Below, in pieces: positions 1,309 through 18,628 of a stretch of 64,000 nt of DNA. A model generated the notes under the pieces. That model was not told the DNA's origin. It did no database searches and saw nothing but the letters and a program-made list of their open reading frames with translations. Made by a program: the position numbers and the translations under genes. Position 1 is the stretch's first letter; every line of letters starts with the position of its first letter. The stretch covers positions 62,001-126,000 of the forward strand of contig CANQNN010000005.1 in NCBI GenBank assembly GCA_947625205.1, given 5' to 3'. Source of the DNA: an uncultured Lachnospiraceae bacterium (GTDB lineage: Bacteria; Bacillota; Clostridia; Lachnospirales; Lachnospiraceae).

Positions 1309-1339
1309 TCTGATAAACTTACCGAAAGGAGGTGTCTTT

Positions 1340-3120: not shown

Positions 3121-3123
3121 ATG

Positions 3124-3150
3124 AAAAACTCCCTCTGTGGGGAGTTTTTT
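3124..3150 (+). terminator. Rho-independent terminator after the kinase gene
   Basis: The arm AAAAACTCCC and the arm GGGGAGTTTTTT form a stem with a 5-nt loop and a T run, 3 bp after the kinase stop. It separates the two-component genes from the ABC genes, which have their own operator. Confidence 0.85.
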
Positions 3151-3165
3151 CATGTCTGCGCAAAT

Positions 3166-3197
3166 TCCATATACATTTCATACCCATTCCATATTGG
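3166..3197 (+). promoter_or_regulatory. Putative triple-repeat operator for the ABC transporter genes
   Basis: Three half-sites TYCATA start at 3166, 3177 and 3188, exactly 11 bp apart. The last two and their flank (to 3197) match the site at 1287-1308 upstream of the regulator. The array sits about 55 bp before the ATPase start, where a transcription activator would bind. Regulation by the 1340 response regulator is inferred. Confidence 0.6.
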
Positions 3198-3251
3198 ATT
3201 GGTATCCTGCGGGTGTGTTCAGAAGAATAGCACAGGAATAAGGAGGCAACT

Positions 3252-4172
3252 ATGATTATGAATTATGTCCTTACAACAAACGCTTTGTCTAAAGAATACG
3301 GAGCATACAAAGCGTTGAACGCTGTTACCATGCACATTCCCAAAGGGGCGATCTATGGCTTTGTTGGGCAAAATGGTGCTGGCAAGACAACCTTAATTCG
3401 GCTGATATGCGGATTGCAGGCGGCTACTTCCGGTGAATATACGCTTTATGGGAGGAAAAATTCGGATAAGGATATCCACAAATCGCGCAGAAAAATGGGA
3501 GCTGTTGTAGAAACACCGTCCATTTATCTTGATATGACGGCAGAGGATAATCTCAAATTGCAGTACGATATTCTTGGCTTACCCTCTTACGGTGGACTGG
3601 CAGAACTATTGAAGCTGGTCGGCCTTGAAAATACCGGGAGAAAGAAAGCGAGGGACTTTTCACTCGGTATGCGGCAGCGGTTGGGAATTGCGGTCGCGCT
3701 TTGCGGCAGTCCTGATTTCTTGGTATTAGACGAGCCAATCAATGGTCTTGACCCGCAAGGCATTATTGAAATGCGGAAATTGATTTTGAAACTCAACCGT
3801 GAACATCAGATTACGGTATTGATTTCCAGTCACTTCCTTGATGAACTGTCAAAGCTGGCGACACATTACGGCTTTATTGATAATGGGCACATTGTTAAAG
3901 AGATTAGCGCCGAAGAACTGGACGCTGCTTGCCGAAAGTGTGTAAGTGTAGAAGTTACAAATGTAAAAATGCTTGCCTGCGTGCTTGACGGCATGGGTGT
4001 GAAATATGAAATTCTAAGTGACAGTTGTGCGGACATTTTTGCAAAGGTAAACATTTCCAAACTTACTCTTGCTCTTGCAAAGGAAAACTGCGAGATATTG
4101 TCGGTTCAAGAACATGATGAAAGCTTGGAAAATTATTTTGTCGGTTTAATAGGAGGTCACAAACATGAGTAA
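3252..4172 (+). CDS. ABC transporter ATP-binding protein (BcrA-like)
   Basis: 306 residues. Walker A GQNGAGKT is at 39-46, followed by a Q-loop region, an ABC signature degenerated to SLGMRQR, and Walker B FLVLDEPINGLD. A ~90-residue C-terminal extension follows, as in bacitracin- or lantibiotic-type exporter ATPases. The gene overlaps the permease start by 8 bp. With the preceding kinase/regulator it probably exports or detoxifies a membrane-active peptide, but the substrate cannot be read from sequence. ATG at 3252 has the SD AAGGAGG. Confidence 0.9.
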   Translation: MIMNYVLTTNALSKEYGAYKALNAVTMHIPKGAIYGFVGQNGAGKTTLIRLICGLQAATSGEYTLYGRKNSDKDIHKSRRKMGAVVETPSIYLDMTAEDNLKLQYDILGLPSYGGLAELLKLVGLENTGRKKARDFSLGMRQRLGIAVALCGSPDFLVLDEPINGLDPQGIIEMRKLILKLNREHQITVLISSHFLDELSKLATHYGFIDNGHIVKEISAEELDAACRKCVSVEVTNVKMLACVLDGMGVKYEILSDSCADIFAKVNISKLTLALAKENCEILSVQEHDESLENYFVGLIGGHKHE

Positions 4173-5004
4173 TTTATTACACTCTAATTTTTCTCGTCTG
4201 TGGAAAAACAAAATCTTTTGGCTTTGCATGGGCGGTATGTTTATATACGCTGTGGTCTATATGCTGAACGCCGGTCAAAAGACTTTTTCGTATGCTACTG
4301 GAGAGGCATACACCCTCGAAGATTACTATTTTCAATTTTTAATATATGCTGGCTTTTTCTTTGCCGTTGTTTCAAGTATGTTCTTAGGAACAGATTATAA
4401 CGACGGTACAATACGGAACAAATTGATCGTAGGACATACGCGAGCGAACGTATATCTTGCAAATCTGGTTGTGACTTTTGTTGCATCGCTGCTTATTATG
4501 TGTGCATGGTTTATTGGTGCATTTGTGGGCGTTCCAGCTCTTGGCTTTTTTACACTCAGCCCCGCTAACCTCGTAGGCTATTTTCTAATCTGCGTCTTGC
4601 TGGTGGCGGCATATTCCGCAATCAACACTTTTATAGCAATGCTTTCTTCTAACAAAACAATCACCGTTTTGATTTCTTTGGGACTAACAATCGGTATGTT
4701 ACTTTGTGCAAGTTTGCTTTATAACGCTTTGGAAGCGCCGGAAACGATAAATTTCTATGACGGTATATCAATAAGCGGAGTGACAGCGCCAGCGGGTGAA
4801 ACAGTGGCAAATCCTAACTACATCGGCGGAGTATTGCGCTCTATTTTTCAGATGTTACTTAATATTTTGCCAGCAGGTCAAAGCGTTAATGTGGCATTTC
4901 TACACGTTGAACACTACTATATTATGCTGCTTTCATCGGTAGCTGTTACAGTAGTTATAACCGCTTTTGGGATTGTGCTGTTTGGCAAGAAAGATTTGAA
5001 ATAA
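4165..5004 (+). CDS. ABC-2 type transporter permease
   Basis: 279 residues with about six transmembrane helices (first ~16-32, last ~250-272) and a short extracytoplasmic segment near 190-215. It pairs with the ATPase whose 3' end it overlaps. The SD AGGAGG precedes ATG 4165. Topology and pairing fit a BcrB/lantibiotic-immunity-type permease. Unlike BceB permeases it has no large extracellular domain. Confidence 0.85.
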   Translation: MSNLLHSNFSRLWKNKIFWLCMGGMFIYAVVYMLNAGQKTFSYATGEAYTLEDYYFQFLIYAGFFFAVVSSMFLGTDYNDGTIRNKLIVGHTRANVYLANLVVTFVASLLIMCAWFIGAFVGVPALGFFTLSPANLVGYFLICVLLVAAYSAINTFIAMLSSNKTITVLISLGLTIGMLLCASLLYNALEAPETINFYDGISISGVTAPAGETVANPNYIGGVLRSIFQMLLNILPAGQSVNVAFLHVEHYYIMLLSSVAVTVVITAFGIVLFGKKDLK

Positions 5005-5015
5005 TTCCCTAAGTA

Positions 5016-5174
5016 CGATGCAAGACTTTCACCGCTGGCAATACGAACATGATCGTAAGCCGTGGACTTGGGAACAGCATCATACCGATACGGTTTTATA
5101 ACAGACCGGAAGTTGTAGTAGTGGAGCTACAGGCAGTGGATTGTGTAAAGGGAGTGGTGGTTGTGGGAAAATAG
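5016..5174 (+). pseudogene. Relic of a calcineurin-like metallophosphoesterase (C-terminal end)
   Basis: With no start codon, frame 5016-5174 (stop TAG 5172-5174) encodes the characteristic tail GLGNSIIPIRFYNRPEVVV, preceded by NTNMIVSR. This is the conserved C-terminal strand region of YkuE/YaeI-type metallophosphoesterases. The metal-binding N-terminal two thirds are missing and the homology begins 12 bp after the permease stop, so the ABC module appears to have replaced the rest. The family call rests on motif memory. Confidence 0.65.
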
Positions 5175-5221
5175 TGATCCTGGAGGTAGGGGATGATGAG
5201 GAAGCATACAGTTATGTGCGG

Positions 5222-5262
5222 CGGCAGGGAGATTAACACCTCTCTGCCGTCATTTCTTTTTG
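5222..5262 (+). terminator. Hairpin terminator
   Basis: A 10-bp stem (CGGCAGGGAG with CTCTCTGCCG, one G-U pair) and an 8-nt loop, followed by a T-rich stretch. It closes the unit ending in the phosphoesterase relic. Confidence 0.8.
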
Positions 5263-5303
5263 GCTTTTATATGAACATTCTTGTGAAACTCTTGGCAATT
5301 TAA

Positions 5304-5345
5304 CTCTAATGTGTTAGAGTATATATGAACTCTAATAAATTAGAG
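5304..5345 (+). promoter_or_regulatory. Twin palindromic BlaI-type operators
   Basis: Two 16-bp palindromes, CTCTAATGTGTTAGAG (5304-5319) and CTCTAATAAATTAGAG (5330-5345), share the half-site CTCTAAT/TTAGAG and have centres 26 bp apart. They lie just upstream of, and touching, the SD of the BlaI-family gene. This is the expected autoregulatory site of that repressor and also controls the coupled M56 gene. The sequence differs from the staphylococcal TACA/TGTA operator. Confidence 0.75.
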
Positions 5346-5360
5346 GAAGGAGCGCTTACT

Positions 5361-5732
5361 ATGGATACGCCAAAGGTATTTGAAAGTGAATATCGTTTTT
5401 GCTTAATTTTGTGGGAGAATGAACCCGTTAAAAGCAGTAAACTTGTAGAGCTTTGCAAGGAGCAACTTGGTTGGAAACCCACCACCACTTACACTGTTAT
5501 CAAACGGTTATCTGAACGTGGGGTGTTAAAAAACGAAAAGACAGTTGTCACATCACTTGTCACTAAAGAACAAGTGCAAGTGGCAGAATTGAATGAAATG
5601 GTTGAGAAAACATTTGAGGGTTCATTGCCTGCCTTTATTGCAGCATTTACAAAACACCAAAAGATTTCTGATGCAGAAATTGATGCGGTTCAGCAAATGA
5701 TAGACCGCTTTAGGAAAGGAGAGTCAAAATGA
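5361..5732 (+). CDS. BlaI/MecI-family transcriptional repressor
   Basis: 123 residues. An N-terminal winged helix (SEYRFCLILWENEPVKSSKL, then TTTYTVIKRLSERGVL as recognition helix and wing) is followed by a C-terminal dimerisation helix pair. ATG 5361 with SD AGGAAGG is preferred over the in-frame ATG 5325, because the second operator palindrome (5330-5345) lies between them. The stop overlaps the M56 sensor gene (ATGA), the classic blaI-blaR1 arrangement. The repressor should be inactivated when the M56 protease signals. Confidence 0.9.
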   Translation: MDTPKVFESEYRFCLILWENEPVKSSKLVELCKEQLGWKPTTTYTVIKRLSERGVLKNEKTVVTSLVTKEQVQVAELNEMVEKTFEGSLPAFIAAFTKHQKISDAEIDAVQQMIDRFRKGESK

Positions 5733-7150
5733 GCGAATTCTTCTTAAACGTTGTGAATATGAGTATATCGGCAAGTTGGCTTGTACTTGCAGTATTGCTT
5801 TTGAGGTTATTGTTCAAAAAAGCACCAAAATGGATTACTGTACTTTTATGGGGGATTGTAGCAATCAGACTAATTTGCCCATTCTCTATTGAGAGTATGT
5901 TGAGCCTTATACCGAGTGCTGAAACAATTAGTCCGGAAATAATGATGGATAGAAATCCTGAAATCAATTCAGGTGTTCCTATCATCAATAATGTAGTAAA
6001 TCTAATTATTAGTGAATCGTTTACCCCCGATCCTTTAACAAGTGCAAATCCCTTGCAAATACTAATTCCTATTTTGTCAATTGTATGGGGTGTCGGTATT
6101 GTTGGAATGCTGATATATACTGTAATCAGTTATTTCAAAGTAAAGAGAAAAATTGGCACCGCTGTATTACTCCGTGATAACGTTTTTCAGAGTGAAAATG
6201 TTATTTCACCTTTTGTGCTTGGTATCTTCAAACCGAAGATTTATTTGCCGTTCAATATGAGCAAGCAGGACATATCCTACGTTATTGCACACGAGCAAGC
6301 ACATATTTGTCGCAAAGATTATTGGTGGAAACCGTTAGGTTTTCTTATCCTAACGATTCATTGGTTCAATCCTTTGATGTGGCTTGGTTATGTGGTGCTC
6401 TGCCGTGATATTGAGCTGGCTTGTGATGAAAAGGTCATTAAGGAACTGAATACTGAGCAGAAAGCTGATTATGCTCAAGCACTTTTATCTTGTAGCGTAA
6501 ATCGCCGTATGCTTGCGGCTTGTCCCCTTGCTTTTGGAGAGGTAGGTGTCAAGAATAGAGTGAAATCGGTGCTGAATTATAAAAAGCCCTCGTTTTGGAT
6601 TGTTGTTGCAGCGATTGTTGCAAGTGTTGCGGTAGCAGTATGTTTCTTGACAAATCCCAAAAGTGATTCAAGCGCATATGATATAAGTTATGTGTCGCAA
6701 CAAAGCAGCACTTCGGAGTTTGAGGGGCTGTCCATTGAAATCGTTTCCCTTGAAGCATCGTCACCTGTTCCTTACTTAACGGTACAATATATAAACGGCA
6801 GCCACGAGGACATTATTTACGGAGAAGAGTTTTATATCTACCGCTGGACGGGAGACGTTTGGGAAAATTGCCAAATTGACCCAAATTATGGTTGGGATGC
6901 CATTGGCTATTATATGAGCCCCGGCGCAAAAGATACTCATGTGTACAACTTAAACGGATTTATTATGAGTGAACCCGGCAAATACAGATTTGAGAAGGAT
7001 TTCTCCGTTGACGGAAAGCCCGAAACAAAGTATAAAGTATATATTGATTTTGAACTCACACACGATGTAGGTGGCGCAGATTCAAGCAATGTTCAAACTT
7101 TTGAATCCAAGGAAAATATTTATGAAAAGGTTGAAAACTATACTATTTAA
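5729..7150 (+). CDS. BlaR1/MecR1-type M56 membrane metallopeptidase
   Basis: 473 residues. N-terminal transmembrane helices (about 7-30, 37-55 and 110-130) precede the zinc-protease motif HEQAH at 188-192 on the cytoplasmic side. A further helix follows at ~290-308 and then a ~160-residue outer domain. That outer domain is not a penicillin-binding sensor: no SxxK/SxN/KTG set is visible. It resembles the small Ig-like domains common in Firmicute lipoproteins (VQYINGSHEDIIYGEEFYIY, then IGYYMSPGAKDTHVY). The protein probably cleaves the BlaI repressor when its outer domain senses an unknown envelope signal. Confidence 0.85.
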   Translation: MSEFFLNVVNMSISASWLVLAVLLLRLLFKKAPKWITVLLWGIVAIRLICPFSIESMLSLIPSAETISPEIMMDRNPEINSGVPIINNVVNLIISESFTPDPLTSANPLQILIPILSIVWGVGIVGMLIYTVISYFKVKRKIGTAVLLRDNVFQSENVISPFVLGIFKPKIYLPFNMSKQDISYVIAHEQAHICRKDYWWKPLGFLILTIHWFNPLMWLGYVVLCRDIELACDEKVIKELNTEQKADYAQALLSCSVNRRMLAACPLAFGEVGVKNRVKSVLNYKKPSFWIVVAAIVASVAVAVCFLTNPKSDSSAYDISYVSQQSSTSEFEGLSIEIVSLEASSPVPYLTVQYINGSHEDIIYGEEFYIYRWTGDVWENCQIDPNYGWDAIGYYMSPGAKDTHVYNLNGFIMSEPGKYRFEKDFSVDGKPETKYKVYIDFELTHDVGGADSSNVQTFESKENIYEKVENYTI

Positions 7151-7334
7151 TAACTGCAACAATTATTTGAATGTTTTACGTGCAATAGTCGTATTTGTTT
7201 TAGCAAGTGCTTTATATTGTTTTATTAATTTCATCTATGCCGTATTATTTGGAATAGCAGTGATGAAAGGCGTTTGTATTATAATAATCGGCGGCATAAC
7301 CATAGCGATTACTTTTCTTTGCAAACTAAATTAA
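7122..7334 (+). CDS. Small hydrophobic membrane protein (possible)
   Basis: A 70-residue frame starting at ATG 7122 behind AAGGAA, overlapping the last 29 bp of the M56 gene. Two predicted membrane helices (about 21-43 and 49-66) follow a basic N-terminus. I do not recognise a family. Coupling to the M56 gene suggests co-expression. It could be a decayed remnant, as codon use is AT-rich and there is no strong SD. Confidence 0.45.
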   Translation: MKRLKTILFNNCNNYLNVLRAIVVFVLASALYCFINFIYAVLFGIAVMKGVCIIIIGGITIAITFLCKLN

Positions 7335-7542
7335 TCTCTCCGGGTTTAATTCCTTGCAACTCTGCTGACGGCAACTGTAGATAAAGTGAGTATATGAATG
7401 CTGATATACTAAAAAGTTTAAAAAAAGGCGCCGATATATATTAAAATTGTACGATCAACAAATTGGCAGAAGCAACTGAGGCTAATGCTAAGAGCGGGCA
7501 ATAGAAACGGATTTCACAAAAACAAATCAAGGAGGATAAGCA

Positions 7543-8670
7543 ATGTCATCAATTATCAATCAGAATTACAGCCAGTTTTACAAAGGAACAGAGCCCCTGA
7601 AAAGCTATGGCTCTAACACAGCAGGAAAGAAAGACAAGTTAGTAAGGTATGAATTTAATACGCATGATGAGCAAGGCAACAAGATCATGGATCAAATGTC
7701 CAGAGAAGAAACTTTGCAGGCAATGAAAGACATTCGTGCGCAATACGGGAATGATGTCATGATAGAGTTTTCCGGCGATGGAATGGCAAAACTTGTGGAA
7801 AGCCGCAAATATGGACATGGGCAGGGAGCAGACCTTGATGAAATTATGGGAGTTTCTGCCAAAGAACGGACAATTCCGGATGATATGGTAACACAGCTTG
7901 AGGGTACATACCAGAAAGTTTCAGACAGTGATTTAGACCGCATGAAAGAAACATGGCACAGAAAACTCAGGGAAGCGTCACCGGAAGTGTGTGACGAATT
8001 GGACGGTCTTATGGCACGCATTTTTGACCATGCAATCAATCATAAAAATGACGGCGAAAAATTCGGTGATGAATTTATAAAACTGGTGCAGAAAGCAGAA
8101 ACAGCAATCGCAGAATATGCTGAAAAAGAAGTGGATAAGGAAGATAATAGTTCCATAGCCACGGCAGGAGAAGCGCAGCTTTCCAAAACAGCGCAGGAAT
8201 TTTTGAAAAAGCTGCGTGCAACCTATGGAAATATGGATTTCTTTGTGGCAGATTTTAGCAGAGGGGATAATGCAAAGGACATTCTTGCCGGAGCAAGGAA
8301 TGAGTATTCCGTCATTCTTTCTGCGGAAGAAATAGAAAAAATGGCGGCAGATGAAAAATATGCGGCAGAGTATATGGATAAGGTTCAGGGCGCCGTCCGT
8401 ATGTCAGAGCGCATCAATCGGGAATTTGGTTTCACTTCTGCGTTTGGCGAAAAAGGCAATATAAAAGTCAGCAAAATCGGAATTGCAGTCGATGAAAATG
8501 GTATGACCACGTTCTTTGCGGAGCTTGAAAAGTCCAGTCAACAGCAGAGGGAACTGATAGAGAAAAGGAGAGCAGAAAAGAAAGAACAGGCAGAGCATAC
8601 TTTCGTGCAGGCAGATAGCATAGAGGATTTGATAAAGCAGATTAAAAATGAAACAGCGGCTAAGGATTGA
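7543..8670 (+). CDS. Uncharacterised protein, possibly DUF6033 family
   Basis: 375 residues, soluble and charged, with no signal peptide or membrane segment. The N-terminus resembles proteins labelled DUF6033 in Lachnospiraceae (SIINQNYSQFYKG, then QMSREETLQAMKDI), but this is from memory. The middle and C-terminal parts are helix-rich, ending in a strongly coiled segment (ELEKSSQQQRELIEKRRAEK). The SD AAGGAGGA before ATG 7543 is strong. Its function is unknown. Flanking gaps (7335-7542 and 8671-8706) hold no gene I can support. Base composition is visibly more AT-rich than the dcw cluster, consistent with mobile-element cargo. Confidence 0.75.
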   Translation: MSSIINQNYSQFYKGTEPLKSYGSNTAGKKDKLVRYEFNTHDEQGNKIMDQMSREETLQAMKDIRAQYGNDVMIEFSGDGMAKLVESRKYGHGQGADLDEIMGVSAKERTIPDDMVTQLEGTYQKVSDSDLDRMKETWHRKLREASPEVCDELDGLMARIFDHAINHKNDGEKFGDEFIKLVQKAETAIAEYAEKEVDKEDNSSIATAGEAQLSKTAQEFLKKLRATYGNMDFFVADFSRGDNAKDILAGARNEYSVILSAEEIEKMAADEKYAAEYMDKVQGAVRMSERINREFGFTSAFGEKGNIKVSKIGIAVDENGMTTFFAELEKSSQQQRELIEKRRAEKKEQAEHTFVQADSIEDLIKQIKNETAAKD

Positions 8671-8706
8671 GCGGAAGTTGGCAATTTGTTGATATAACAC
8701 ATCATC

Positions 8707-8740
8707 AAAGCGTATAGAGTAAAATCTATGCGCTTTATGT
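8707..8740 (+). terminator. Terminator hairpin, copy 1 of a repeated type
   Basis: A 12-bp stem, AAAGCGTATAGA with TCTATGCGCTTT (one G-U pair), and a 6-nt loop. It closes the unit containing the 7543 gene. An almost identical hairpin is at 12191-12221. Confidence 0.75.
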
Positions 8741-8862
8741 TATGGGCAAGAAATTTGATGAAAAAATCTTAATAAATTTTATTATGAAAAAATGAGTATG
8801 ATTATGGTATTATGGAAGTGGAACAAATTAGCGTTTTCAGGGTAAAAAGGGTAGATATAACC

Positions 8863-10212
8863 ATGAAGCGGATTGTTTTGAAACTTGTATTGGCTCTTGG
8901 GGTCGTGTTGGCTGTCTCAGGGTGCGCGGGAAAAGAAAAAAACGAGATGGTCGGCGTGGACGGTTATTCGGAGCATATAATTGAGTTTCCTTCCGGGAAC
9001 GATGAGAAAACGGAGTACAATCAGGAGGCTTTAAGCATTGACGCTTTTACACTGGAGGTCGCGCTGCCAGACGGTTGGAGCGTTTCTGATCAGGCGAATG
9101 ATGCTTACGGACTGATGAGCTGTTTTTCCAGAAACTATATCTATGACAAAAGCGGCGAATGTGTTGGTGCTGTCGGCTATAACGTGGTTCCATCCGATTT
9201 GGACGAGGATAGTCTGATCCCGATTGCGATTTATAGTCAGATTGCGTTGGGAAACGATTACTGTTTTGACGTAAAAGAAAATTATGACGTGATTTCGTCA
9301 TCGGACAAGGTAGAGACCGCCCTGACAGACGTGTATTATTCACCCGTAATAACTGGCGGTTCGGAGGAAAAGAAGAATAAGGGTATTGTTTCCTATGATT
9401 TGACGCACGGTGTTTATGTTGCTATCGAGTTTGAAGACGATGCGCTGTCTGACGATGCGTATTCCTATATAGCGAACAGCTTATCTTTGGATTGCAGCAC
9501 CGACGACGAAAGCGAAAGAAAAGACCAAACGGAAGCCTATGCCGTGGCTCAATATGGAAATGTGGAGGTAACGATCTACCGGGAGGAAAGCGATCGGAGC
9601 GATCCGTATATTTATCGCGCTGAGTTTATGGCAGACGGCGTGACCTATAATCTGTCCATCCATTCCGACGACCCGAAAGAACTTGATGCTTATCTGAACA
9701 CCTTTCTGGGTGAGCCTGAAAACAGCAGAACACCGATTTTATCGGATGTACTTGGCTTCAATGTACGCCGTGTTGAGATGGAGGAAACTAGTCCGTTCCA
9801 GGTTATGTGGCACTATTATGTTGAAGTGAACGGTGAGGACATATGTGTGGCAGAGCAGTTCGGTTATGAGAACTACCCCGAATCATGGAGCAGGGATTTA
9901 GACGGCGATGGTGTACCTGAGCTGATCTGCAATAACCAATATGGCGATGGTGTTCAGGAGGTTTGTGTCTATCGCAACAACAATGGCAGCATAGAAAAAG
10001 GAAGTATTCGCTGGTCATACTATAGCGAAAAATTTGGTTGGATCAATCTCGGCGAAGGTGGAATATCCGGCCTGCCCGCAGAGCGTTATGACCCGGAACG
10101 GGACATTTTTACGGCTGCTCACTATGACAATGACTCTGACACCACGGTGACGGCAGAGTTTGACGACGGCCTGATTCCTTTTGAATTTATTCCTTTCACG
10201 CACTCATCCTGA
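8863..10212 (+). CDS. Lipoprotein of unknown function
   Basis: 449 residues from ATG 8863. The frame is open further upstream, but this start places a signal peptide at the N-terminus: KR, a hydrophobic core and lipobox VSGC with C21 as the lipidated residue. The mature protein is acidic. Near the C-terminus it carries a calcium-loop-like segment DLDGDGVPELICNN followed by YGDGVQEVCVY, as in VCBS/EF-hand-type repeats. It probably sits on the outer face of the membrane. Function is unknown. Two further lipoprotein genes follow in the same orientation. Confidence 0.75.
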   Translation: MKRIVLKLVLALGVVLAVSGCAGKEKNEMVGVDGYSEHIIEFPSGNDEKTEYNQEALSIDAFTLEVALPDGWSVSDQANDAYGLMSCFSRNYIYDKSGECVGAVGYNVVPSDLDEDSLIPIAIYSQIALGNDYCFDVKENYDVISSSDKVETALTDVYYSPVITGGSEEKKNKGIVSYDLTHGVYVAIEFEDDALSDDAYSYIANSLSLDCSTDDESERKDQTEAYAVAQYGNVEVTIYREESDRSDPYIYRAEFMADGVTYNLSIHSDDPKELDAYLNTFLGEPENSRTPILSDVLGFNVRRVEMEETSPFQVMWHYYVEVNGEDICVAEQFGYENYPESWSRDLDGDGVPELICNNQYGDGVQEVCVYRNNNGSIEKGSIRWSYYSEKFGWINLGEGGISGLPAERYDPERDIFTAAHYDNDSDTTVTAEFDDGLIPFEFIPFTHSS

Positions 10213-10301
10213 AAGGGAAAATTTGCAATCTTGAAAGTTGAAATTTGTCAAAAGAAAAAAGAAATAAGTAAATTATCATTTTGATAAGAACTGTACATGG
10301 C

Positions 10302-10330
10302 AAGTAAGCTTCTATGGATTGGAAAAATAA
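10302..10330 (+). repeat. 29-bp exact copy of the 3' end of the second M56 gene
   Basis: Positions 10302-10330 are identical to 61972-62000, which encode the last codons (VSFYGLEK, stop) of the M56-type gene at 59844. Here the same codons occur without any upstream coding frame, just ahead of a lipoprotein gene. At 62 kb the copy is also followed by a lipoprotein gene. It looks like the footprint of a recombination or duplication that removed an M56 paralogue. Confidence 0.8.
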
Positions 10331-10349
10331 GAGAATCGGAGGGATGACA

Positions 10350-10919
10350 ATGCTGAAAAAATGGATATTGGTTCTGACAGGCTTATGTCTTATTCTGTCC
10401 GCCTGTGGGGACAATGGGGATGTCACAGCACAGATTGGCCTTTCGAAGACAGTGCGCGACTATGAAGCGATGTCCTATGGGGAGTTCAGGGAACGTACAG
10501 GAAAGGAAGCGGAATTTTATCATGCGGACAGATTTATCGTAGAGATTCCCGATTCTTCGCTTTGCATCATATATACGGGGAAGTATGATGAGGATATGGC
10601 AGGCTATACGTTGTCGGATGACGATGTGCCCATTCGTATGGAAGGTACTCTTGGTGCACTGTTAGAGGGAATCGGCAGAGAAATGTCCGTGACGGAGCTG
10701 ACTGCGGCTTTGTCGGAGGGCGGCGCGGAGGCGGTCTGCGAACTGTCAGAGGGTGCTGGCACCGCATACTATGTAGGTGACAGATATGCGGACATTCAGT
10801 TTGACAGCGACCGGGACGGCGAATATGATTGTCGGCTTTTGATTTCCTTAGAAAATGCCGGGGATGAACATGTCGATTCGGAGAGCACAGCATGGCTTGA
10901 AATACTTCCCGTGTCATAA
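10350..10919 (+). CDS. Small lipoprotein of unknown function
   Basis: 189 residues. ATG 10350 lies 6 nt after the SD GGAGGG (10338-10343). The in-frame ATG 10344 abuts the SD and is less likely. The signal peptide is MLKKWILVLTGLCLILSAC with lipidated C19. The mature part contains DSDRDGEYDCRLL, another Asp-rich loop like that in the 8863 product, suggesting related extracytoplasmic proteins. The family is not recognised. Confidence 0.7.
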   Translation: MLKKWILVLTGLCLILSACGDNGDVTAQIGLSKTVRDYEAMSYGEFRERTGKEAEFYHADRFIVEIPDSSLCIIYTGKYDEDMAGYTLSDDDVPIRMEGTLGALLEGIGREMSVTELTAALSEGGAEAVCELSEGAGTAYYVGDRYADIQFDSDRDGEYDCRLLISLENAGDEHVDSESTAWLEILPVS

Positions 10920-11026
10920 AGTGTGCACGGAAAAAATATGCCAGGATGCGAAGATGATTCCAAATGATTTGAAACGTGTACAGAAAAGGGGATATGATCT
11001 TTCGCTCCTGTTAGCTATGGAGGCAA

Positions 11027-12127
11027 ATGATGAAAAAGAGATTAGCGGCTGTCTTACCAATGATATTGATTTTGATGATAACAGGGTGCGGCAATTCAAA
11101 CAGTGTGGGATTGCCCGTTGAAATCGAGGGCCAGGTGCCGGAAAATGCCGAACAGACAGATACAGAGGGAAAAGCAGTGCCCGAAAACCCTGATGAGGAA
11201 GTAGGAACAGAGGATGAAGCTGCCAAAGAACTGACAATGGATTCCCTTTTGGCATTGTATGAAAACGGTGGTCTGGCATTAAAAGTGGAGGAGGAAGGAC
11301 TGGAAGGGTTTCTTGCCTATGAGAATATGAAACCGGTTCCGGACATGGAGGAGTCATTAACGGGACTTTACAGCTGCGATCTTGTCTATCCGTATACATC
11401 TGAAAAAGGAACGGTCAGCGATAGAAATTATGAACTGCAGCTTTATTACTGGCGTCCCGAGACGGCAGAAGAATATGGACATGCCGAAAATGAGATCGAC
11501 AGTATCCGGCTGATGGAAAAAGAATCACATGATGCCGTGCTGCTTTACGAGGTGGACGAGAGGTTTATCGCCACAAATGATTTGGCGGGATTTTTGCAGC
11601 GGGATTACAGTATGGAGCAGTATCTGATCTGCGATCTGCCCAATGATTTTACTTTGGGAGCATTTGAAAACGACAGTGAGTTTGATGACTGGCTGTTGGA
11701 AGGCGGAACCGAAGAACCGGTTCATGGAGAGTGGGCTCCTGAGGCATGGTACTGTCCGGGCGGTATCGGCAGAGGCGGGAACGCATCTGGGATATTAAAG
11801 TTTGAGAACGGGATGCTTACAGGAGTTTCTTTGATGATGAACCATGCGGAACGGCTCGGCGAACCGGAAATGCTGGAGGGTTGTGAAGTGCAGGCGCTCC
11901 TGGCAGAGTATGCCTTTGACCTGTTTACCGCTCCCGAATGGGAGGAATATCTGTCACAGCATCCGGAAACGAAAGACGATGCGGCGCAGTCTCATTACTG
12001 GTATGTTTTTCTGGGAAAAGAAGACAGTGATATCTATTATGTCCTGTTTCTGGACCAGGAGTATTTTACCAAAGACGATGCTGTACGTATGGCACAGTCA
12101 GTCCGGTTTACGGAGAAAGCTTTTTGA
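11027..12127 (+). CDS. Lipoprotein of unknown function
   Basis: 366 residues. The signal peptide ends in lipobox ITGC (C21), then an acidic low-complexity linker (about 35-65, rich in E, D and P) leads to a globular domain with many aromatic residues and no recognised motif. ATG 11027 has SD GGAGG upstream. It is the third lipoprotein gene in a row and is followed by the repeated hairpin terminator. Likely an envelope or stress-related cargo protein, but this is only context. Confidence 0.7.
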   Translation: MMKKRLAAVLPMILILMITGCGNSNSVGLPVEIEGQVPENAEQTDTEGKAVPENPDEEVGTEDEAAKELTMDSLLALYENGGLALKVEEEGLEGFLAYENMKPVPDMEESLTGLYSCDLVYPYTSEKGTVSDRNYELQLYYWRPETAEEYGHAENEIDSIRLMEKESHDAVLLYEVDERFIATNDLAGFLQRDYSMEQYLICDLPNDFTLGAFENDSEFDDWLLEGGTEEPVHGEWAPEAWYCPGGIGRGGNASGILKFENGMLTGVSLMMNHAERLGEPEMLEGCEVQALLAEYAFDLFTAPEWEEYLSQHPETKDDAAQSHYWYVFLGKEDSDIYYVLFLDQEYFTKDDAVRMAQSVRFTEKAF

Positions 12128-12190
12128 TATCATAACAGTAAAGAGGATGCAGATTTTATTTCGGTCACAACCAGACAGCAGCACGGCGTA

Positions 12191-12221
12191 AGGGCGCATA
12201 GAGTAACATCTATGCGCTTTT
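12191..12221 (+). terminator. Terminator hairpin, copy 2 of a repeated type
   Basis: AGGGCGCATAGA pairs with TCTATGCGCTTT around a 6-nt loop, followed by TTTT. It has nearly the same sequence as the hairpin at 8707-8736. The two copies bracket the three lipoprotein genes. Confidence 0.75.
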
Positions 12222-12292
12222 GTGTTACCAGTAATATTGCCAGTCCCGTAAGAATAGAATGGAGCAAGAACATGTACATATAGAAGGGTAAT

Positions 12293-12433
12293 ATGAAAGA
12301 GAGGAATATGGAAAGTGCAAAAAAACAGCTGCTGCTCAATATTTCAGATATCCTGGCGCAGAGAGGACTGATCAGCGAGGAGGAGAAGCAGCGGATGCGG
12401 GAGCAGATCATCCATTCCTGTACCGAAGCGTGA
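12293..12433 (+). CDS. 46-residue SHOCT-like protein upstream of the recombinase
   Basis: ATG 12293 follows AGAAGGG. The protein is two amphipathic helices (KKQLLLNISDILAQRGLIS and EEEKQRMREQIIHSC), resembling the SHOCT oligomerisation motif in which a short helix is followed by GLIS/GIIT and a second helix. It lies 53 bp upstream of the large serine recombinase in the same orientation. A role as recombinase accessory factor is possible but not shown. Confidence 0.65.
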   Translation: MKERNMESAKKQLLLNISDILAQRGLISEEEKQRMREQIIHSCTEA

Positions 12434-12486
12434 CAAACCGATAGAGGAGTGGAGAGAGAATAAAACGAGCGGAAAGGAGCGATGAA

Positions 12487-14175
12487 ATGAGGCAGAGCTC
12501 ACCTATGCAGCCGTCGCCGCGGCAGCGTGTTGGCATTTATAACCGATGTTCCACGGAAGAGGAAGCACAGAAAAACGCTCTGGCGGTCCAGGCGGCGGAG
12601 AGCCGCGAGATCGCAGCCGGAAAAGGCTGGATGATTGCAGCCCAGTATATTGAGAGCGAGTCCGGAACGTCCACTAAGCGCCGCACAGAGTATCAGCGGC
12701 TTATAGAGGACATGGAGAGAGACATATTCGACATTGTGATGATCAAGTCCATCGACCGCCTCATGCGGTCGGCTAAAGACTGGTATCTGTTTCTTAACAG
12801 GCTTACGGAGAATGATAAAAAGCTTTATATTTATATCGAAGATAAATTTTATACGCCGGACGATGGCCTGATCTCGGGCATCAAGGCGATTCTGGCGGAG
12901 GAGTTCAGCCGGGAATTATCGAAGAAGATAAAGAACTCCCACGGCCGCAGACAGGAGCTTCACAGGCAGGGGAAGGAGGCCGGGCTCAACATCACCAGGC
13001 CCATGTTCGGATGGGATAAGGCGGAGAAAGATGTCTATGTCATCAATGAGACGGAGGCGGCGGCATACAGGGAAGCCTTTGACATGGCGCGTGCCGGGAA
13101 GGGGTTCTACACAATTGCCAACGTTATGTATGAGCGCGGCATCCGCGGCAAAGGCGGGAAGAGGATATCAAACGTGCAGTGGCGGAAGATGCTGTATTCG
13201 CCGCGGGCGCACGGTACGATGGTCATTCACACGAGGGAATATGACTTTGCGACACACAGATCTGTCCCTGTCCCGCCGGAGGAATGGATCTATATAGAGA
13301 ATGCACTGCCGGCGATCGTCACGAAAGAGTATCAGGAGGAAACTCTGCGGATGCTGGAAAGCAGGCGAATCAAGAACCGGTACGGAGACTACCGGAGAGA
13401 TCTGTCCAAAGTCGGTATGTATGACCTGTCACAGAAGATCTACTGCGCGGAATGCGGGCAGGTATATTACCGGTCGTCTTTCCGGTCGGGGAAAGCCGGG
13501 CGCAGGATCGCAGAGTGGAAGTGCTCGACGGCGCTCACGATGGGCAGAAAAGCGAGAAACCCGCAGGGCTGCGACAATATCAATCTTCTGGATGAAGAAT
13601 TCCACCGCCTGATCGAGACGGCCTGCGCGGAGCAGTACGGGGATATCTTCGGCGCGCAGCAGAATATTGTTGGCGAGGCGCTTGCTGCCGTGAGAAAAGC
13701 GATGCGGGAGAATGGGGCGGAGAGAGAGCTGCAGAGAGTGAAACGGGAGCATGAGAAGCTGGCCAGGAAAAAGGACGTCCTGTTCGACAAGCTGATGAAC
13801 GAAACGATTGCAGACGAGGAGTTCGCGCGGTATAATCGGCAGTTGGATGAGCAGATGGCGCCTCTGGCAGAGCAGATGCGGCGGCTGGAACAAAAAAGTG
13901 CCGCCCGCGCCGATTGTGAGGAGCGGCTGGCGAAGATTAAGGCGCTGCTGTGCGGCGGGGACATCATTCGGCAGGCCAAAACGCAGGAACTCATTGCCCG
14001 GATCGAAAAAATCGTGGTATATTCTGACGGAAAGATTGACATACTCTTCGACAGGGACGGACTGCTCGGCGCGGCGGGGATTTGCGGGGAAGATATTTTC
14101 CCGCAGGGAGAAAAAGATGGCGAGGCATTGCTGCGGATCACGGCTCGGTATGTGCACAGGCGCAGGACTCTATAA
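12487..14175 (+). CDS. Large serine recombinase (integrase/excisionase of the element)
   Basis: 562 residues. A resolvase-type catalytic domain (about 12-155) carries nucleophile S22 in YNRCSTEEE and IKSIDRLMRSAKDW. The Recombinase domain follows, then a zinc-ribbon domain (C320, C323, C346, C362) and a coiled-coil stretch (about 410-480) as in serine integrases such as TnpX and phiC31-type enzymes. The frame ends at TAA 14173-14175, only 9 bp before codons for a transpeptidase SxN motif. The recombinase thus sits at the very edge of its element, next to the attachment site, as is usual. GC content is visibly higher than in the 1-9 kb cargo. Confidence 0.92.
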   Translation: MRQSSPMQPSPRQRVGIYNRCSTEEEAQKNALAVQAAESREIAAGKGWMIAAQYIESESGTSTKRRTEYQRLIEDMERDIFDIVMIKSIDRLMRSAKDWYLFLNRLTENDKKLYIYIEDKFYTPDDGLISGIKAILAEEFSRELSKKIKNSHGRRQELHRQGKEAGLNITRPMFGWDKAEKDVYVINETEAAAYREAFDMARAGKGFYTIANVMYERGIRGKGGKRISNVQWRKMLYSPRAHGTMVIHTREYDFATHRSVPVPPEEWIYIENALPAIVTKEYQEETLRMLESRRIKNRYGDYRRDLSKVGMYDLSQKIYCAECGQVYYRSSFRSGKAGRRIAEWKCSTALTMGRKARNPQGCDNINLLDEEFHRLIETACAEQYGDIFGAQQNIVGEALAAVRKAMRENGAERELQRVKREHEKLARKKDVLFDKLMNETIADEEFARYNRQLDEQMAPLAEQMRRLEQKSAARADCEERLAKIKALLCGGDIIRQAKTQELIARIEKIVVYSDGKIDILFDRDGLLGAAGICGEDIFPQGEKDGEALLRITARYVHRRRTL

Positions 14176-14193
14176 TACAAAACTTCCTGTAAC
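14176..14193 (+). other. Right attachment junction (attR) inside spoVD
   Basis: Immediately after the recombinase stop the sequence becomes spoVD coding sequence: ACT TCC TGT AAC CCG GTG reads TSCNPV, with the SxN motif (SCN) at 14185-14193. The junction must lie at or just left of these codons. The exact core cannot be defined because attL is outside the window. Confidence 0.7.
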
Positions 14194-14838
14194 CCGGTGT
14201 TTATAACAGTCGGCCTCAGAATGGGATCCGAGCGTTATTACTCGTACTTTAAAAAATTCGGGCTGTTAGACAGGACAGGGATCGATCTGCCCGGCGAGGC
14301 GGGTACGATCATGCATAATGTAGAGGATATCGGGCCGGTTGAACTGGCGACTATATCATTTGGACAGTCCTTTCAGATCACACCCATCCAGCTTGCGGTC
14401 ACGGCGTCCTCTATCATAAATGGAGGCAGAAGGGTGACGCCGCATTTCGGTGTGAGAGTGGCGGACAGTGACGGCAGTAACAGCCAGTCTTTCAGCTATC
14501 CTGTTAAGGATAATATAGTGTCGGAGGAGACATCGGCGACCATGCGGTATATTCTGGAGCAGGTCGTGGCGGAGGGAAGCGGCAGAAACGGTGCGGTAGA
14601 GGGCTACCGCGTGGGCGGAAAGACAGCTACCAGTCAGACACTGCCGAGAGGAAGCGGCAGATACATAGCATCATTTCTGGGATTCGCGCCTGCGGATGAC
14701 CCACAGGTGCTTGCCGTGGCAATTATCAATAATCCGCAGGGGACATATTACGGAGGTCAGATCGCGGCGCCGGTCGTGCGCCAGCTTTTTGAAAACATTC
14801 TTCCATATTTGGAGAAGATGGACTATAATAGAACATGA
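14182..14838 (+). pseudogene. spoVD: 3' part of SpoVD/FtsI-type class B penicillin-binding protein, interrupted by the element
   Basis: The frame from 14182 to TGA 14836-14838 encodes the end of a transpeptidase domain: SCN (SxN motif), KTGIDLPGEA-like text (RTGIDLPGEA), FGQSFQITPIQLAVTASSIINGG and the third active-site motif, here KTAT in VGGKTATSQT, then FLGFAPADDPQVLAV. The N-terminal part, including the S-x-x-K nucleophile, is absent from the window and must lie beyond the left edge or be lost. It is directly upstream of mraY, where ftsI/spoVD belongs in the dcw cluster. Precise excision of the element would rebuild the gene. No PASTA domain is present on this end. Confidence 0.85.
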
Positions 14839-15006: not shown

Positions 15007-15963
15007 ATGAACGCAACAATTTTATTGTCTGTGATGATTTCATTTGCGATCAGCGTGATGTTAGGGCCGGTTGTGATCCCTTTTCTGCGCAGGCTCAAGG
15101 TGGGACAGACGGTCAGGGACGAGGGACCTGAAAGCCACTTAAAGAAAAACGGCACCCCGACTATGGGCGGTATTCTGATCCTGGTCTCAATAGTGGTTAC
15201 ATCCCTTTTTTTCGTGAGGGATTACCCGAAGATCATACCGGTGCTGTTCCTTACATTAGGCTTTGGAATGATCGGATTCATGGATGATTATATCAAGGTT
15301 GTGCTAAAGCGGTCTATGGGACTTCGGGCATGGCAGAAGTTCGCGCTGCAGATCGTTGTGACGGCTGTTTTCAGTTTTTATCTGATACGTTATACGGATG
15401 TGTCGCTTGCCATGAAGGTGCCGTTTGTGGATGGTATGTATCTGGATTTCGGATGGCTGAATATTCCGATCCTGTTTTTTATTGTGATCGGAACCGTCAA
15501 CGGTACGAATTTTACGGACGGTCTGGATGGGCTGGCAAGCTCCGTTACGGTGCTTGTGGCAACCTTTTTCAGTGTGGTGGCGATCGGTACGGAGAGCGGC
15601 ATTGAGCCGGTCACCTGTGCGGTAGTGGGAGCGCTGCTGGGATTCTTGCTTTTCAACGTCTATCCGGCCAGTGTTTTCATGGGGGACACTGGTTCGCTTG
15701 CGCTTGGCGGTTTTGTCGCGGCGACGGCCTACATGATGCAGATGCCTCTGTTTATTGTGATCGTCGGTTTTATTTATATGGCGGAGGTGCTGTCTGTGAT
15801 CCTGCAGGTTTCATATTTTAAGATGACCGGGGGCAGGCGTATCTTTAAAATGGCTCCGATCCATCACCATTTTGAGCTGTGCGGCTGGTCGGAGACAAGG
15901 GTGGTCGCCGTATTTTCCATTGTGACGGCGCTGCTGTGTCTCATCGCTTTGATGGGTGTCTGA
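15007..15963 (+). CDS. mraY: Phospho-N-acetylmuramoyl-pentapeptide transferase
   Basis: MraY transfers phospho-MurNAc-pentapeptide from UDP to undecaprenyl phosphate, making lipid I at the inner membrane face. 318 residues, about ten transmembrane helices. Family signatures are visible: HLKKNGTPTMGG, FMDDYIK (catalytic Asp pair), NFTDGLDGLA and the C-terminal MAPIHHHFELCGW. The SD GGAGGG precedes ATG 15007. It follows the interrupted spoVD and precedes murD. With the element in place its transcription from upstream dcw promoters would be disturbed, so a local promoter may be needed. Confidence 0.97.
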   Translation: MNATILLSVMISFAISVMLGPVVIPFLRRLKVGQTVRDEGPESHLKKNGTPTMGGILILVSIVVTSLFFVRDYPKIIPVLFLTLGFGMIGFMDDYIKVVLKRSMGLRAWQKFALQIVVTAVFSFYLIRYTDVSLAMKVPFVDGMYLDFGWLNIPILFFIVIGTVNGTNFTDGLDGLASSVTVLVATFFSVVAIGTESGIEPVTCAVVGALLGFLLFNVYPASVFMGDTGSLALGGFVAATAYMMQMPLFIVIVGFIYMAEVLSVILQVSYFKMTGGRRIFKMAPIHHHFELCGWSETRVVAVFSIVTALLCLIALMGV

Positions 15964-16066
15964 AACTGTTTCACGATTTGCCGAATGGTCCGGGATCGCG
16001 CTGCGATCCTCTCTGAATCATTTACGGCGCTGGCATCAGAGATGTGGTAAAGGATAATAGAAGGGT

Positions 16067-17452
16067 ATGTGTGTTATGGATATAAAAGATGTACGGGATA
16101 AGAAAGTGTTGGTGGTCGGTTCGGGCATCAGCGGCATCGGAGCGGTGGAGGCGCTGTGTCGTGTGGGTGCTGCGCCGGTTCTGTTCGATTCCAACGGGGA
16201 ACTGGATAAGGCTGCTATAGAGGGGAAATTTGCCCAGGGCGTGACGGCGGATATCGTGCTGGGAGAGCTGCCGGACAGGATCGCGGAGGAGATCGCGCTT
16301 GTGATACTCAGCCCGGGCGTGCCGTCAGATACGGAGTTTGTGAACAGCTTCCGCAGAAAAGGCGTCGCGGTCTGGGGTGAGATCGAACTGGCCTACAGGC
16401 TGGGCAAAGGGCGTGTGGTCGGTATTACGGGAACCAACGGCAAGACGACAACGACCTCCCTGGTGGGTGAGATCATGTCCGCTTACTGCAGCCATGTGGA
16501 TGTGGTGGGCAATATAGGCAATCCCTATACCCTGACGGCGCCCGATGCCGGTGAGAATACCGTAACGGTAGCGGAGATCAGCAGTTTTCAGCTGGAGACG
16601 ATCGATACATTTAAACCGGATGTATCGGCCATCTTAAATATAACGCCGGATCATCTGAACAGGCATCATACTATGGAGAATTACGCGGCTGTCAAGGAGT
16701 CCATTGCAAAGAACCAGACGAAGGAACAGGTCTGTGTACTGAATTATGAGAATCCGTATACGAGGGATTTCGGCGGCAGATGTCCTGCCCGTGTCGTCTG
16801 GTTCTCGTCTGCACGAAAGCTTGATGATGGTCTGTACTTGGACGGAGAGGATATTTTTCTGGCCCAGGACGGCAGGGCGAAGCGGCTGATGAATATTCAC
16901 GACATGAATCTGGTAGGCGTCTGCAATGTGGAAAATGTCATGGCGGCGATCGCCATTACGCAGGCGATGGGCGTACCGATGGACACGATTCTTGCGGTGG
17001 TCAGACAGTTTAAAGCGGTAGAGCACAGAATAGAGTTTGTGGCAACCAAAAGAGGCGTGGATTATTATAATGATTCCAAGGGAACCAATCCGGATGCCGC
17101 CATACAGGGGATACGCGCCATGAGTAAGCCCACAGTCCTGATCGGCGGAGGATACGACAAACAGAGCGAGTATGACGAGTGGATCGAGGCCTTTGACGGC
17201 AAGGTCAAATGTCTTGTCCTTATCGGGCAGACACGCGACAAGATCGCTGCGTGCGCCAGAAAACACGGCGTAGAGAATATTGTTTTGGCAGACAGTTTTG
17301 AAGAGGCATTTTCTATATGTGTGGAACGCGCACAGAGCGGAGATGCGGTCCTTCTGTCACCCGCCTGCGCAAGCTGGGGAATGTTCCCGAATTACGAGGT
17401 AAGAGGCAGACTGTTTAAAGAGCTTGTAAACCAATTGGAGGAGACTGAGTAG
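16067..17452 (+). CDS. murD: UDP-N-acetylmuramoyl-L-alanine--D-glutamate ligase
   Basis: MurD adds D-glutamate to UDP-MurNAc-L-Ala with ATP in the cytoplasm. 461 residues from 16067. An N-terminal Rossmann fold (VLVVGSGISGIGA), the ATP loop GTNGKTTTT (about 122-130), ITPDHLNRH and the C-terminal motif DSKGTNPDA are all present. A second ATG at 16076 is better spaced from SD AGAAGGG (16059-16065) and may be the true start. The ~100 bp between mraY and murD holds no gene. The stop abuts the GTG start of the next gene. Confidence 0.96.
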   Translation: MCVMDIKDVRDKKVLVVGSGISGIGAVEALCRVGAAPVLFDSNGELDKAAIEGKFAQGVTADIVLGELPDRIAEEIALVILSPGVPSDTEFVNSFRRKGVAVWGEIELAYRLGKGRVVGITGTNGKTTTTSLVGEIMSAYCSHVDVVGNIGNPYTLTAPDAGENTVTVAEISSFQLETIDTFKPDVSAILNITPDHLNRHHTMENYAAVKESIAKNQTKEQVCVLNYENPYTRDFGGRCPARVVWFSSARKLDDGLYLDGEDIFLAQDGRAKRLMNIHDMNLVGVCNVENVMAAIAITQAMGVPMDTILAVVRQFKAVEHRIEFVATKRGVDYYNDSKGTNPDAAIQGIRAMSKPTVLIGGGYDKQSEYDEWIEAFDGKVKCLVLIGQTRDKIAACARKHGVENIVLADSFEEAFSICVERAQSGDAVLLSPACASWGMFPNYEVRGRLFKELVNQLEETE

Positions 17453-18628
17453 GTGGCACAGAGAAATTCTTACCGCAGAAAACATACAAATGGCGAAAAT
17501 TTCATGGATTACAGTCTGTTGTTTATCGTGCTGTTCCTGCTGGGTTTTGGTTTGATCATGGTGTATTCCACCAGTTCTTATGAGGCCAACCTGGATCTGG
17601 GTGATTCTACATATTATCTCAGAAAACAGGTTTTTGCAACGATAGTAGGACTTGTGGCCATGATTTTTGTGGCGAACGTACCCTATCATTTCTGGGAGCG
17701 GTTTGCCGTGATCGGGTATATCGTGTCGGTGGTGCTGATCCTGCTGATCATTCCCTTCGGGCATGAGTCTCACGGCGCCAAGAGATGGCTGTACATAGGC
17801 CCGATCTCCCTGCAGCCCGCCGAGGTTGCCAAATTGTGTATGATACTCTTTTTGTCAAGTATGATCTGCACTATGGGAAAACAGATACGAAATCGCAAGG
17901 GATTTCTGACCGTGCTGATCGTTCCCCTGCCGATTGCCCTGATGCTCTGGAAGATCACGGATAACTTAAGCTCGGCTATCATTGTTGTCGGGATCGCCGT
18001 GCTGATGCTGTTTGTGTCATGTCCGGATTATAAGAGGTTTATCCTGCTGGGACTGGCAACGCTTGCGGGCGCTGCCGCGGCGGTTTTTATCACAGTGCAG
18101 ATGGCGGCTTCACAGACCGTTGCGACGGAGGACATGGGCTTCCGGGGCGAGCGTATTCTGGCTTGGCTTGATCCGGAGGCATATGCGAGCGGCAAAGGAT
18201 TCCAGACGATACAGGCGCTCTATGCCATCGGTTCCGGCGGCGTGCTGGGCAAGGGACTGGGAGCCAGCATGCAGAAGCTTGGTTTTCTGCCGGAGGCGCA
18301 GAATGACATGATATTCTCCATCATCTGTGAGGAGCTGGGACTGTTTGGCGGTTTTGCGGTCATCATCATGTTTATCATGCTGATCTGGCGTTTCATGGTG
18401 ATCGCCAATAATGCGCCGGATCTGTTTGGGGCGCTTCTCGTGGTGGGCGTGCTGGGACACATAGCGATTCAGGTCATCCTCAATATCGGAGTTGTGACCA
18501 ATACGATCCCCAATACCGGGATCTCGCTTCCGTTTATCAGCTACGGCGGTTCCTCGGTGGTATTCCTGCTGATAGAGATCGGTATGGTCCTAAGCGTGGC
18601 GCGGGGTATCCGGCTCAAAGATTTATAG
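17453..18628 (+). CDS. ftsW: FtsW/RodA/SpoVE-family peptidoglycan polymerase
   Basis: A SEDS-family lipid II polymerase/glycosyltransferase of the division or cortex machinery, working with a class B PBP. 391 residues, about ten transmembrane helices. Typical motifs are MVYSTSSYEA near the first helix, the long outer loop before LGFLPEAQNDMIFSIICEE, and the C-terminal GISLPFISYGGSS. GTG 17453 starts directly after the murD stop, with SD GGAGGA inside murD. ATG 17504 is an alternative start. In clostridia the dcw copy can be the sporulation enzyme SpoVE, the partner of SpoVD, so the ftsW/spoVE name is uncertain. Confidence 0.93.
   Translation: MAQRNSYRRKHTNGENFMDYSLLFIVLFLLGFGLIMVYSTSSYEANLDLGDSTYYLRKQVFATIVGLVAMIFVANVPYHFWERFAVIGYIVSVVLILLIIPFGHESHGAKRWLYIGPISLQPAEVAKLCMILFLSSMICTMGKQIRNRKGFLTVLIVPLPIALMLWKITDNLSSAIIVVGIAVLMLFVSCPDYKRFILLGLATLAGAAAAVFITVQMAASQTVATEDMGFRGERILAWLDPEAYASGKGFQTIQALYAIGSGGVLGKGLGASMQKLGFLPEAQNDMIFSIICEELGLFGGFAVIIMFIMLIWRFMVIANNAPDLFGALLVVGVLGHIAIQVILNIGVVTNTIPNTGISLPFISYGGSSVVFLLIEIGMVLSVARGIRLKDL

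Follow-up and report, generated by a model that had tools for sequence, protein, structure and literature searches.

The sporulation genes described as interrupted by intervening DNA include sigK, spoVFB, spoVR, spsM, gerE, and yabG (PMC4191935, PMC5595907, PMC10747680). The skin element interrupts sigK, a mother-cell gene, in Bacillus subtilis and Clostridioides difficile, and its large serine recombinase restores the frame. In C. difficile, excision of skin is under sigma-E and SpoIIID, as is its recombination directionality factor (RDF) (PMC5025042), and in B. subtilis spoIVCA depends on SpoIIID (PMC517825). Interruptions of the same kind are made by vfbin (spoVFB), vrin (spoVR), SP-beta (spsM), gin (gerE), and yin (yabG). 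Here, we describe an element within spoVD, partly contained in a window of 64,000 nucleotides from an uncultured Lachnospiraceae bacterium (G000:C5:62001-126000; G and L numbers are our labels for genomes and loci). We regard it as a skin-like sporulation intervening element that is very probably excised in the mother cell, rejoining spoVD. Like skin, it interrupts a mother-cell sporulation gene, encodes a large serine recombinase, and leaves a restored frame upon removal; unlike skin, its target is spoVD, such elements can be as short as 3.5 kb, and its excision and RDF are predictions made from the sequence. Gin, like the spoVD element, is described as not phage-like, whereas the use of the same site in 35 genomes sets the spoVD element apart from vfbin, vrin, SP-beta, gin, and yin.

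We found no report of a natural split of spoVD or pdaB in the accessible open-licence literature of PubMed Central, and the word spoVD occurs 0 times in the accessible texts of PMC4191935, PMC5595907, and PMC10747680. ICEBs1 is, like our element, a mobile element found inside spoVD, but a different one: in B. subtilis it used this gene as a secondary site in the laboratory, selected with the normal site removed, and its excision was undetectable (PMC3715440). The kind of element is known; judged from the literature searched, the natural target gene, the clade of the recombinase, and the breadth of occurrence are new.

The first-pass annotation of the window had described a recombinase gene (12487-14175) followed by a headless 3' part of a transpeptidase gene reaching 14838, just before a mraY-like gene, which is what we find. 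The 9 bp that it placed between the two are correct from the stop codon (14173-14175) to the Ser-Cys-Asn codons, but not for the T-S-C-N motif (ACT TCC TGT AAC), which begins after 6 bp. The 3' part is in frame with the recombinase stop, and its first start codon, a GTG at 14197, comes after the Ser-Cys-Asn codons. We added 60 kb to the left of the window to search for the missing 5' part (L006 is the stretch to the left on the same contig). It was found on this contig in the same orientation, within the dcw cluster, as a 374-aa frame at C5:57227-58351 (L006:15227-16351) that encodes a penicillin-binding protein (PBP) dimer domain and positions 2-103 of the transpeptidase profile, and ends in MNSC/KQKVVY and a stop. 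The element thus has the expected 5' fragment at its left end, ending at the same codons. The 9-bp core TTCCTGTAA, which contains the Ser-Cys-Asn codons of SxN, is found both at C5:58324 and at C5:76184 (window 14184), 17,860 bp apart, in agreement with the earlier estimate of at least 14 kb of foreign DNA. Joining the flanks in silico gives a single open SpoVD frame of 583 codons, with NSCNPVF restored. A complete second spoVD, which the annotation had named as a sign of a dead remnant, is absent from the genome, because its six PF00905 matches are the two spoVD halves and four other proteins.

The locus has the anatomy of the skin class: a sporulation gene split into parts of the same orientation, a single frame restored upon removal, and a site-specific recombinase of its own. 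This protein has the Resolvase, Recombinase, and zinc-ribbon domains and the catalytic Ser of large serine recombinases; its residues Y18, R20, and S22 are invariant in eight relatives, and a recombinase is present in all 25 elements with both ends available. Its best NCBIfam match is XisF (NF041201), at 72 bits, far short of the model's cut-off of 375 bits. XisF belongs to the fdxN element of heterocyst-forming cyanobacteria and acts in a terminally differentiating cell, although in another target gene and another phylum.

The identification of the gene as SpoVD is based on best hit, position in the dcw cluster, and co-occurrence with SpoIVA rather than on the cut-off of TIGR02214 (SpoVD). 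This is the best model for each half (308.5 and 228.5 bits); the neighbouring PBP, of 765 aa and directly upstream of the 5' part, scores 404.6. Further upstream are genes that, from their sequence, we take to be mraZ-, mraW-, and ftsL-like; the names mraY and murD for the downstream genes are likewise our assumption, and ftsW/spoVE models match the open reading frame (ORF) at 17453-18628. In a sample of 160 genomes of the family, 122 had a SpoVD match at E 1e-88 or better, and 12 of them were dropped because their best match was no better than the level of the neighbouring PBP; 110 remained. SpoVD and SpoIVA were both found in 107 genomes and both missing in 47, with SpoVD alone in three (G103, G127, G188) and SpoIVA alone in three (G115, G117, G242), these discordant genomes being 67-91% complete (Fisher p = 4e-33, uncorrected for relatedness). 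SpoIVA is encoded in the window genome, as are two one-piece matches to the sigma-K model, both below its cut-off, and SpoIVA is present in seven of the eight same-genus split genomes. The spoVD gene of B. subtilis is described as controlled by sigma-E and required for the cortex (PMC517825), and the title of one paper refers to a cortex-specific PBP of C. difficile, with SpoVD occurring 149 times in its text (PMC8417463). As a side observation, the third active-site motif of the window SpoVD (14197-14838) is KTA (GGKTATSQT) and not KTG, as also in L108-L110.

The split recurs far beyond this genome. Among 60 genomes of the same genus searched with the joined protein, spoVD is in one piece in 50, the uninterrupted relatives that the annotation had asked for, and split at this place in eight (G000, G005, G010, G012, G019, G020, G034, G046). 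It is broken in G036 near residue 280, where the sequence holds N letters, and was unmatched in G026 at the limit used. The other seven split genomes have a recombinase 68-79% identical to that of the window before the 3' half; seven genomes of the genus with both ends on one contig have core-to-core lengths of 3,482-24,687 bp. A scan of named genomes with an alignment of eight recombinases gave 33 relatives, 32 of which are followed by a spoVD 3' half with the same starting codon. These 32 records include the seven same-genus genomes just mentioned, and 26 are labelled Lachnospiraceae or belong to this family according to their genus names; the remaining six are L089, L094, L097, L105, L106, and L107. 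In the family sample, two further genomes (G160, G218) are split, with recombinases at 53% before the 3' half; the break is at this codon in three of the 110 SpoVD genomes (these two and G000), while the matches of G100 and G222 cover only part of the length, and those of G118, G128, G148, and G234 come as two pieces broken near residue 280. This makes 35 split genomes (32 plus G000, G160, and G218), so that chance is excluded. The 5' half is seen in 28 of them, on another contig in L106 (G034), and falls outside the available stretch in seven (L088, L089, L090, L098, L108, L109, L110). An assembly artefact is ruled out by the recurrence of the split in independent assemblies and in strain-named records that bear no label of a metagenome-assembled genome (MAG), namely L095, L102, L103, L106, and L112.

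All 35 loci are broken at the SxN codons, which fits the suggestion that this conserved active-site block is a good attB. Seven elements of the genus have both ends available. Their attL retains TCCTGYAA on the gene side; the part of attR that precedes the crossover has diverged in G010, G012, and G020, so that only G-N-AA is common to both ends in all seven. Such a pattern is predicted if the rebuilt gene receives just the left side of attL and the right side of attR. In other genera the shared stretch may extend into CCGGTRTTTAT (e.g., L097, L103). More distant recombinases are found elsewhere: no spoVD part adjoins that of L111 (37%), and no split gene was seen by eye next to those members of the 40-43% group that we inspected (L047-L053), several of which adjoin nrdG-like, thioesterase-like, or permease-like genes. 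A phage origin was considered and rejected, as a scan of viral contigs gave one 25% relative and phage records gave 212 matches, all below 60% identity and the best-ranked at 37%, with no close relative.

Could the halves be decaying pseudogenes left by an old insertion that inactivated spoVD? The gene is indeed split in the assembled genome, but there are no internal stops in 26 N-terminal halves, nor in 33 C-terminal halves except for L106, where the stop lies three codons from the slice end and is the natural one. For comparison, three of 30 intact rows also have a stop in the compared stretch (the C-terminal rows of L089 and L090 are short, with 130 and 44 codons). The ratios of nonsynonymous to synonymous substitution rates (dN/dS) are low. 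Considering all pairs with dS of 0.05-1.5, which are not independent and in which split-split comparisons may include some unsplit time, the medians for N- and C-terminal halves are 0.047 (25 pairs) and 0.045 (142) between split genes, 0.036 (44) and 0.041 (136) between intact ones, and 0.042 (12) and 0.063 (171) between split and intact ones. In 11 close split pairs the values are 0.000-0.039 at dS 0.38-1.41, and the recombinases of 11 such pairs are also conserved (0.057-0.157). The split halves are under strong purifying selection. Hence, the insertion is not a dead remnant, a question raised by the first-pass annotation; with the spore genes of the window genome present as well, we consider decay very unlikely. 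The conservation of both halves as open frames would also be compatible with their translation as two polypeptides that together form a functional split enzyme. This is even harder to sustain: the 3' half lacks a start codon ahead of the SxN codons and, by eye, any part of the N-terminal membrane anchor, and the residues appended after the break vary between lineages. As both halves remain intact here and in many relatives, spoVD is probably stitched together when the cell makes a spore.

The history of the split includes inheritance as well as movement or exchange. On a quick SpoVD tree of 62 rows (L090 was left out for its length), split status requires six changes, five of them forced by well-supported branches. 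In a Parablautia-like clade, the SpoVD and recombinase trees agree on the groups L095/L096, L103/L105, L098/L104, L102/L112, and L092/L093/L114, with L100 and L101 joining the last in both trees, indicating that the split was inherited in this clade. In the group of the window, the SpoVD of G000 pairs with that of L085 but its recombinase with that of L082, and the SpoVD rows of L089 and L106 are placed among intact ones, showing that elements also move or are exchanged. These trees bear on the hypothesis that excision is stochastic and rare during growth, at any time leaving a few cells with an intact spoVD, which alone would sporulate, in the absence of any mother-cell programme. The regulation of the spoVD element is deduced rather than measured, which leaves room for this process, and a yin-type element of Clostridium botulinum was excised in part of the culture at all time points (PMC10747680). 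Yet the resulting spores would lose the element, which in one clade follows the tree of the host gene, and a sigma-E-like motif precedes the recombinase in the elements of the window's group. We find stochastic excision unlikely. Anatomy, selection, and gene function all point to programmed excision, and its restriction to the mother cell would follow from inheritance through spore-forming lines, which suggests that the spore chromosome keeps the element.

We propose the following sequence of events for mother-cell excision. A large serine recombinase would have integrated the element at an attB coinciding with the SxN codons, as the anatomy indicates. In growing cells, and in the chromosome entering the spore, spoVD would remain split. 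Upon activation of sigma-E in the mother cell, the 46-aa ORF and the recombinase would be expressed as an operon; assisted by the small protein or by a different directionality factor, the recombinase would then recombine attL with attR, with a crossover that the junctions place at the AA of the Asn codon. The circle would leave, giving an intact SpoVD transpeptidase for the spore cortex, while the spore chromosome would retain and transmit the element, consistent with its persistence in spore-forming lines. The regulatory step comes from a block common to the 11 elements of the window's group (group A) upstream of the small ORF, AGTAATATTG...GAATARAATGGAGCAAG. We searched 450 bp upstream for the pattern ATATT-N12-15-MATANNNT, based on a presumed sigma-E consensus. 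It matches nine of 11 loci in group A, six of 17 in group B, and none of five others (means in shuffled sequences 0.06, 0.23, and 0.06); a looser form matches 11, 11, and 4 loci in group A, group B, and the others (shuffle means 1.01, 1.73, and 0.49). This is suggestive only of a sigma-E-like promoter before the recombinase operon of group-A elements.

A number of observations weigh against mother-cell excision of a spoVD element. First, no rejoined junction or circle was seen. Second, the promoter pattern was loosened after we had viewed the alignment, and its strict form matches only six of 17 loci in group B and none of five elsewhere; with 12 matches in the window against 1.45 expected, it is not specific. 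Third, the directionality factor is only a candidate: an ORF of 45-119 aa related to the small one of the window is recognised in 20 of 25 complete elements and not in the other five. Fourth, the summed TIGR02214 scores of the halves are below the cut-off of the model (688 bits), and G020, with a split spoVD and 97% completeness, has no SpoIVA match. Finally, spoVD is among the listed sigma-H genes of C. difficile (PMC7438776), which places its action ahead of the mother-cell sigma factors in some species, and the sporulation-specific roles given to dcw synthases speak against a purely late role (PMC10693644).

A second gene is split in the same genus. Recombinases 31-34% identical to that of the window are present in seven same-genus genomes, and a headless deacetylase part follows in five of them (G008, G015, G021, G026, G031); the other two, G037 and G058, have no match to the pdaB-like C-terminal part at 1e-70, a part matched by 48 of the 60 genomes. 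PdaB is the best model for the one-piece protein of relatives (216-221 bits, below the cut-off of 237). We compared 16 pdaB-like places. Both halves are found around LSFDAA/WGN in nine (G010, G012, G027, G032, G034, G038, G042, G044, G056) and around FFMTGG/WVE in G021; G015 and G031 have the latter break, with the 5' part not in the available stretch. The G008 gene consists of three pieces, the middle one of 28 codons, with two recombinases, and in G023, G045, and a second copy in G009 the pdaB-like part starts elsewhere. The split loci are L154-L165 and L169 (G008, G010, G012, G015, G021, G027, G031, G032, G034, G038, G042, G044, G056). The C-terminal halves of nine genomes have dN/dS of 0.011-0.159 in eight pairs with dS below 1.5. 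Both spoVD and the pdaB-like gene are interrupted in G010, G012, and G034. We lean towards the view that in these gut bacteria the mother cell uses DNA excision to assemble several split sporulation genes, involving at least two genes, three sites, and different recombinases. If so, mother-cell genome editing would be a multi-gene, long-inherited feature of the family.

Were the excision confirmed, the spore cortex transpeptidase gene spoVD would be added to the few genes known to be restored through programmed DNA excision, with an element that gut commensals have long kept and that is not confined to one strain. The existence of strain-named carriers, Parablautia intestinalis D8-82 and Lachnospiraceae bacterium 10-1 among them, makes the restriction to the mother cell, the timing, and the reason for keeping the element directly testable. 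There is also a warning for annotation: genes labelled as broken in gut genomes may be intact in the cells that need them.

Features of the window and of the element within it (window positions; C5 coordinates refer to the contig)
Feature	Position	Strand	Remarks
Right-hand part of the 17,860-bp intervening element	1..14183	.	left part C5:58324-62000 (in L006); shared core
ECF-type sigma factor gene, 3' end (C5:61630-62187)	1..187	+	185-aa frame; Sigma70_r2 in part within L006
Cargo, 313-aa protein, possibly the partner of the sigma factor	184..1125	+	no Pfam match
Cargo, response regulator 1340-2005 and histidine kinase 2002-3120	1340..3120	+	Response_reg, Trans_reg_C, HisKA, HATPase_c, HAMP
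Cargo, ABC transporter ATPase 3252-4172 and ABC-2 permease 4165-5004	3252..5004	+	ABC_tran, ABC2_membrane_2
Cargo, Penicillinase_R-type repressor 5325-5732 and M56 membrane peptidase 5729-7150	5325..7150	+	PF03965, PF05569
Cargo, DUF6033 protein	7543..8670	+	PF19498
Cargo, three lipoprotein-like ORFs (by eye) 8812-10212, 10314-10919, 11027-12127	8812..12127	+	none above Pfam cut-off
Putative sigma-E-like promoter TAATATT-N14-AATAGAAT	12232..12260	+	precedes small ORF and recombinase; block shared by 11 group-A elements
46-aa ORF upstream of the recombinase, candidate directionality factor	12293..12433	+	related ORF in 20/25 complete elements
Large serine recombinase, 562 aa	12487..14175	+	Resolvase, Recombinase, Zn_ribbon_recom; Y-x-R-x-S motif (Y18, R20, S22)
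attR core TTCCTGTAA	14184..14192	+	attL core at C5:58324-58332
spoVD 3' part, Ser-Cys-Asn codons of SxN to stop	14185..14838	+	transpeptidase profile positions 108-299; TIGR02214 228.5 bits
Downstream dcw genes	15007..18628	+	mraY-like 15007-15963, murD-like 16067-17452, ftsW/spoVE-like 17453-18628

No phage structural genes were recognised among the scanned cargo proteins of the window element. At its left end are two secreted-looking proteins (L006:16414-16734 and L006:16764-17711), the second without a Pfam or NCBIfam match, and ORFs resembling them (by eye) are found in the short elements of G005, G019, and G020. A conserved set of three genes on the opposite strand, encoding proteins of 264-295, 307-351, and 342-386 aa and by eye an ABC transporter with a lipoprotein, is present in 16 of the 25 elements (L092-L097, L099-L105, L107, L112, L114), which indicates that cargo has long been kept inside spoVD in that clade. 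In two Roseburia MAGs (L109:3215-4084 and L110:10004-10867), the recombinase before the spoVD 3' half has only 287-289 aa and lacks the C-terminal half; this short form, with dN/dS of 0.057 at dS 0.42, may be a recombinase specialised in excision. Left of the dcw cluster, at L006:10-4790, lie ORFs resembling Cas12a (in two overlapping frames), cas4, and cas1, presumably a type V CRISPR system.

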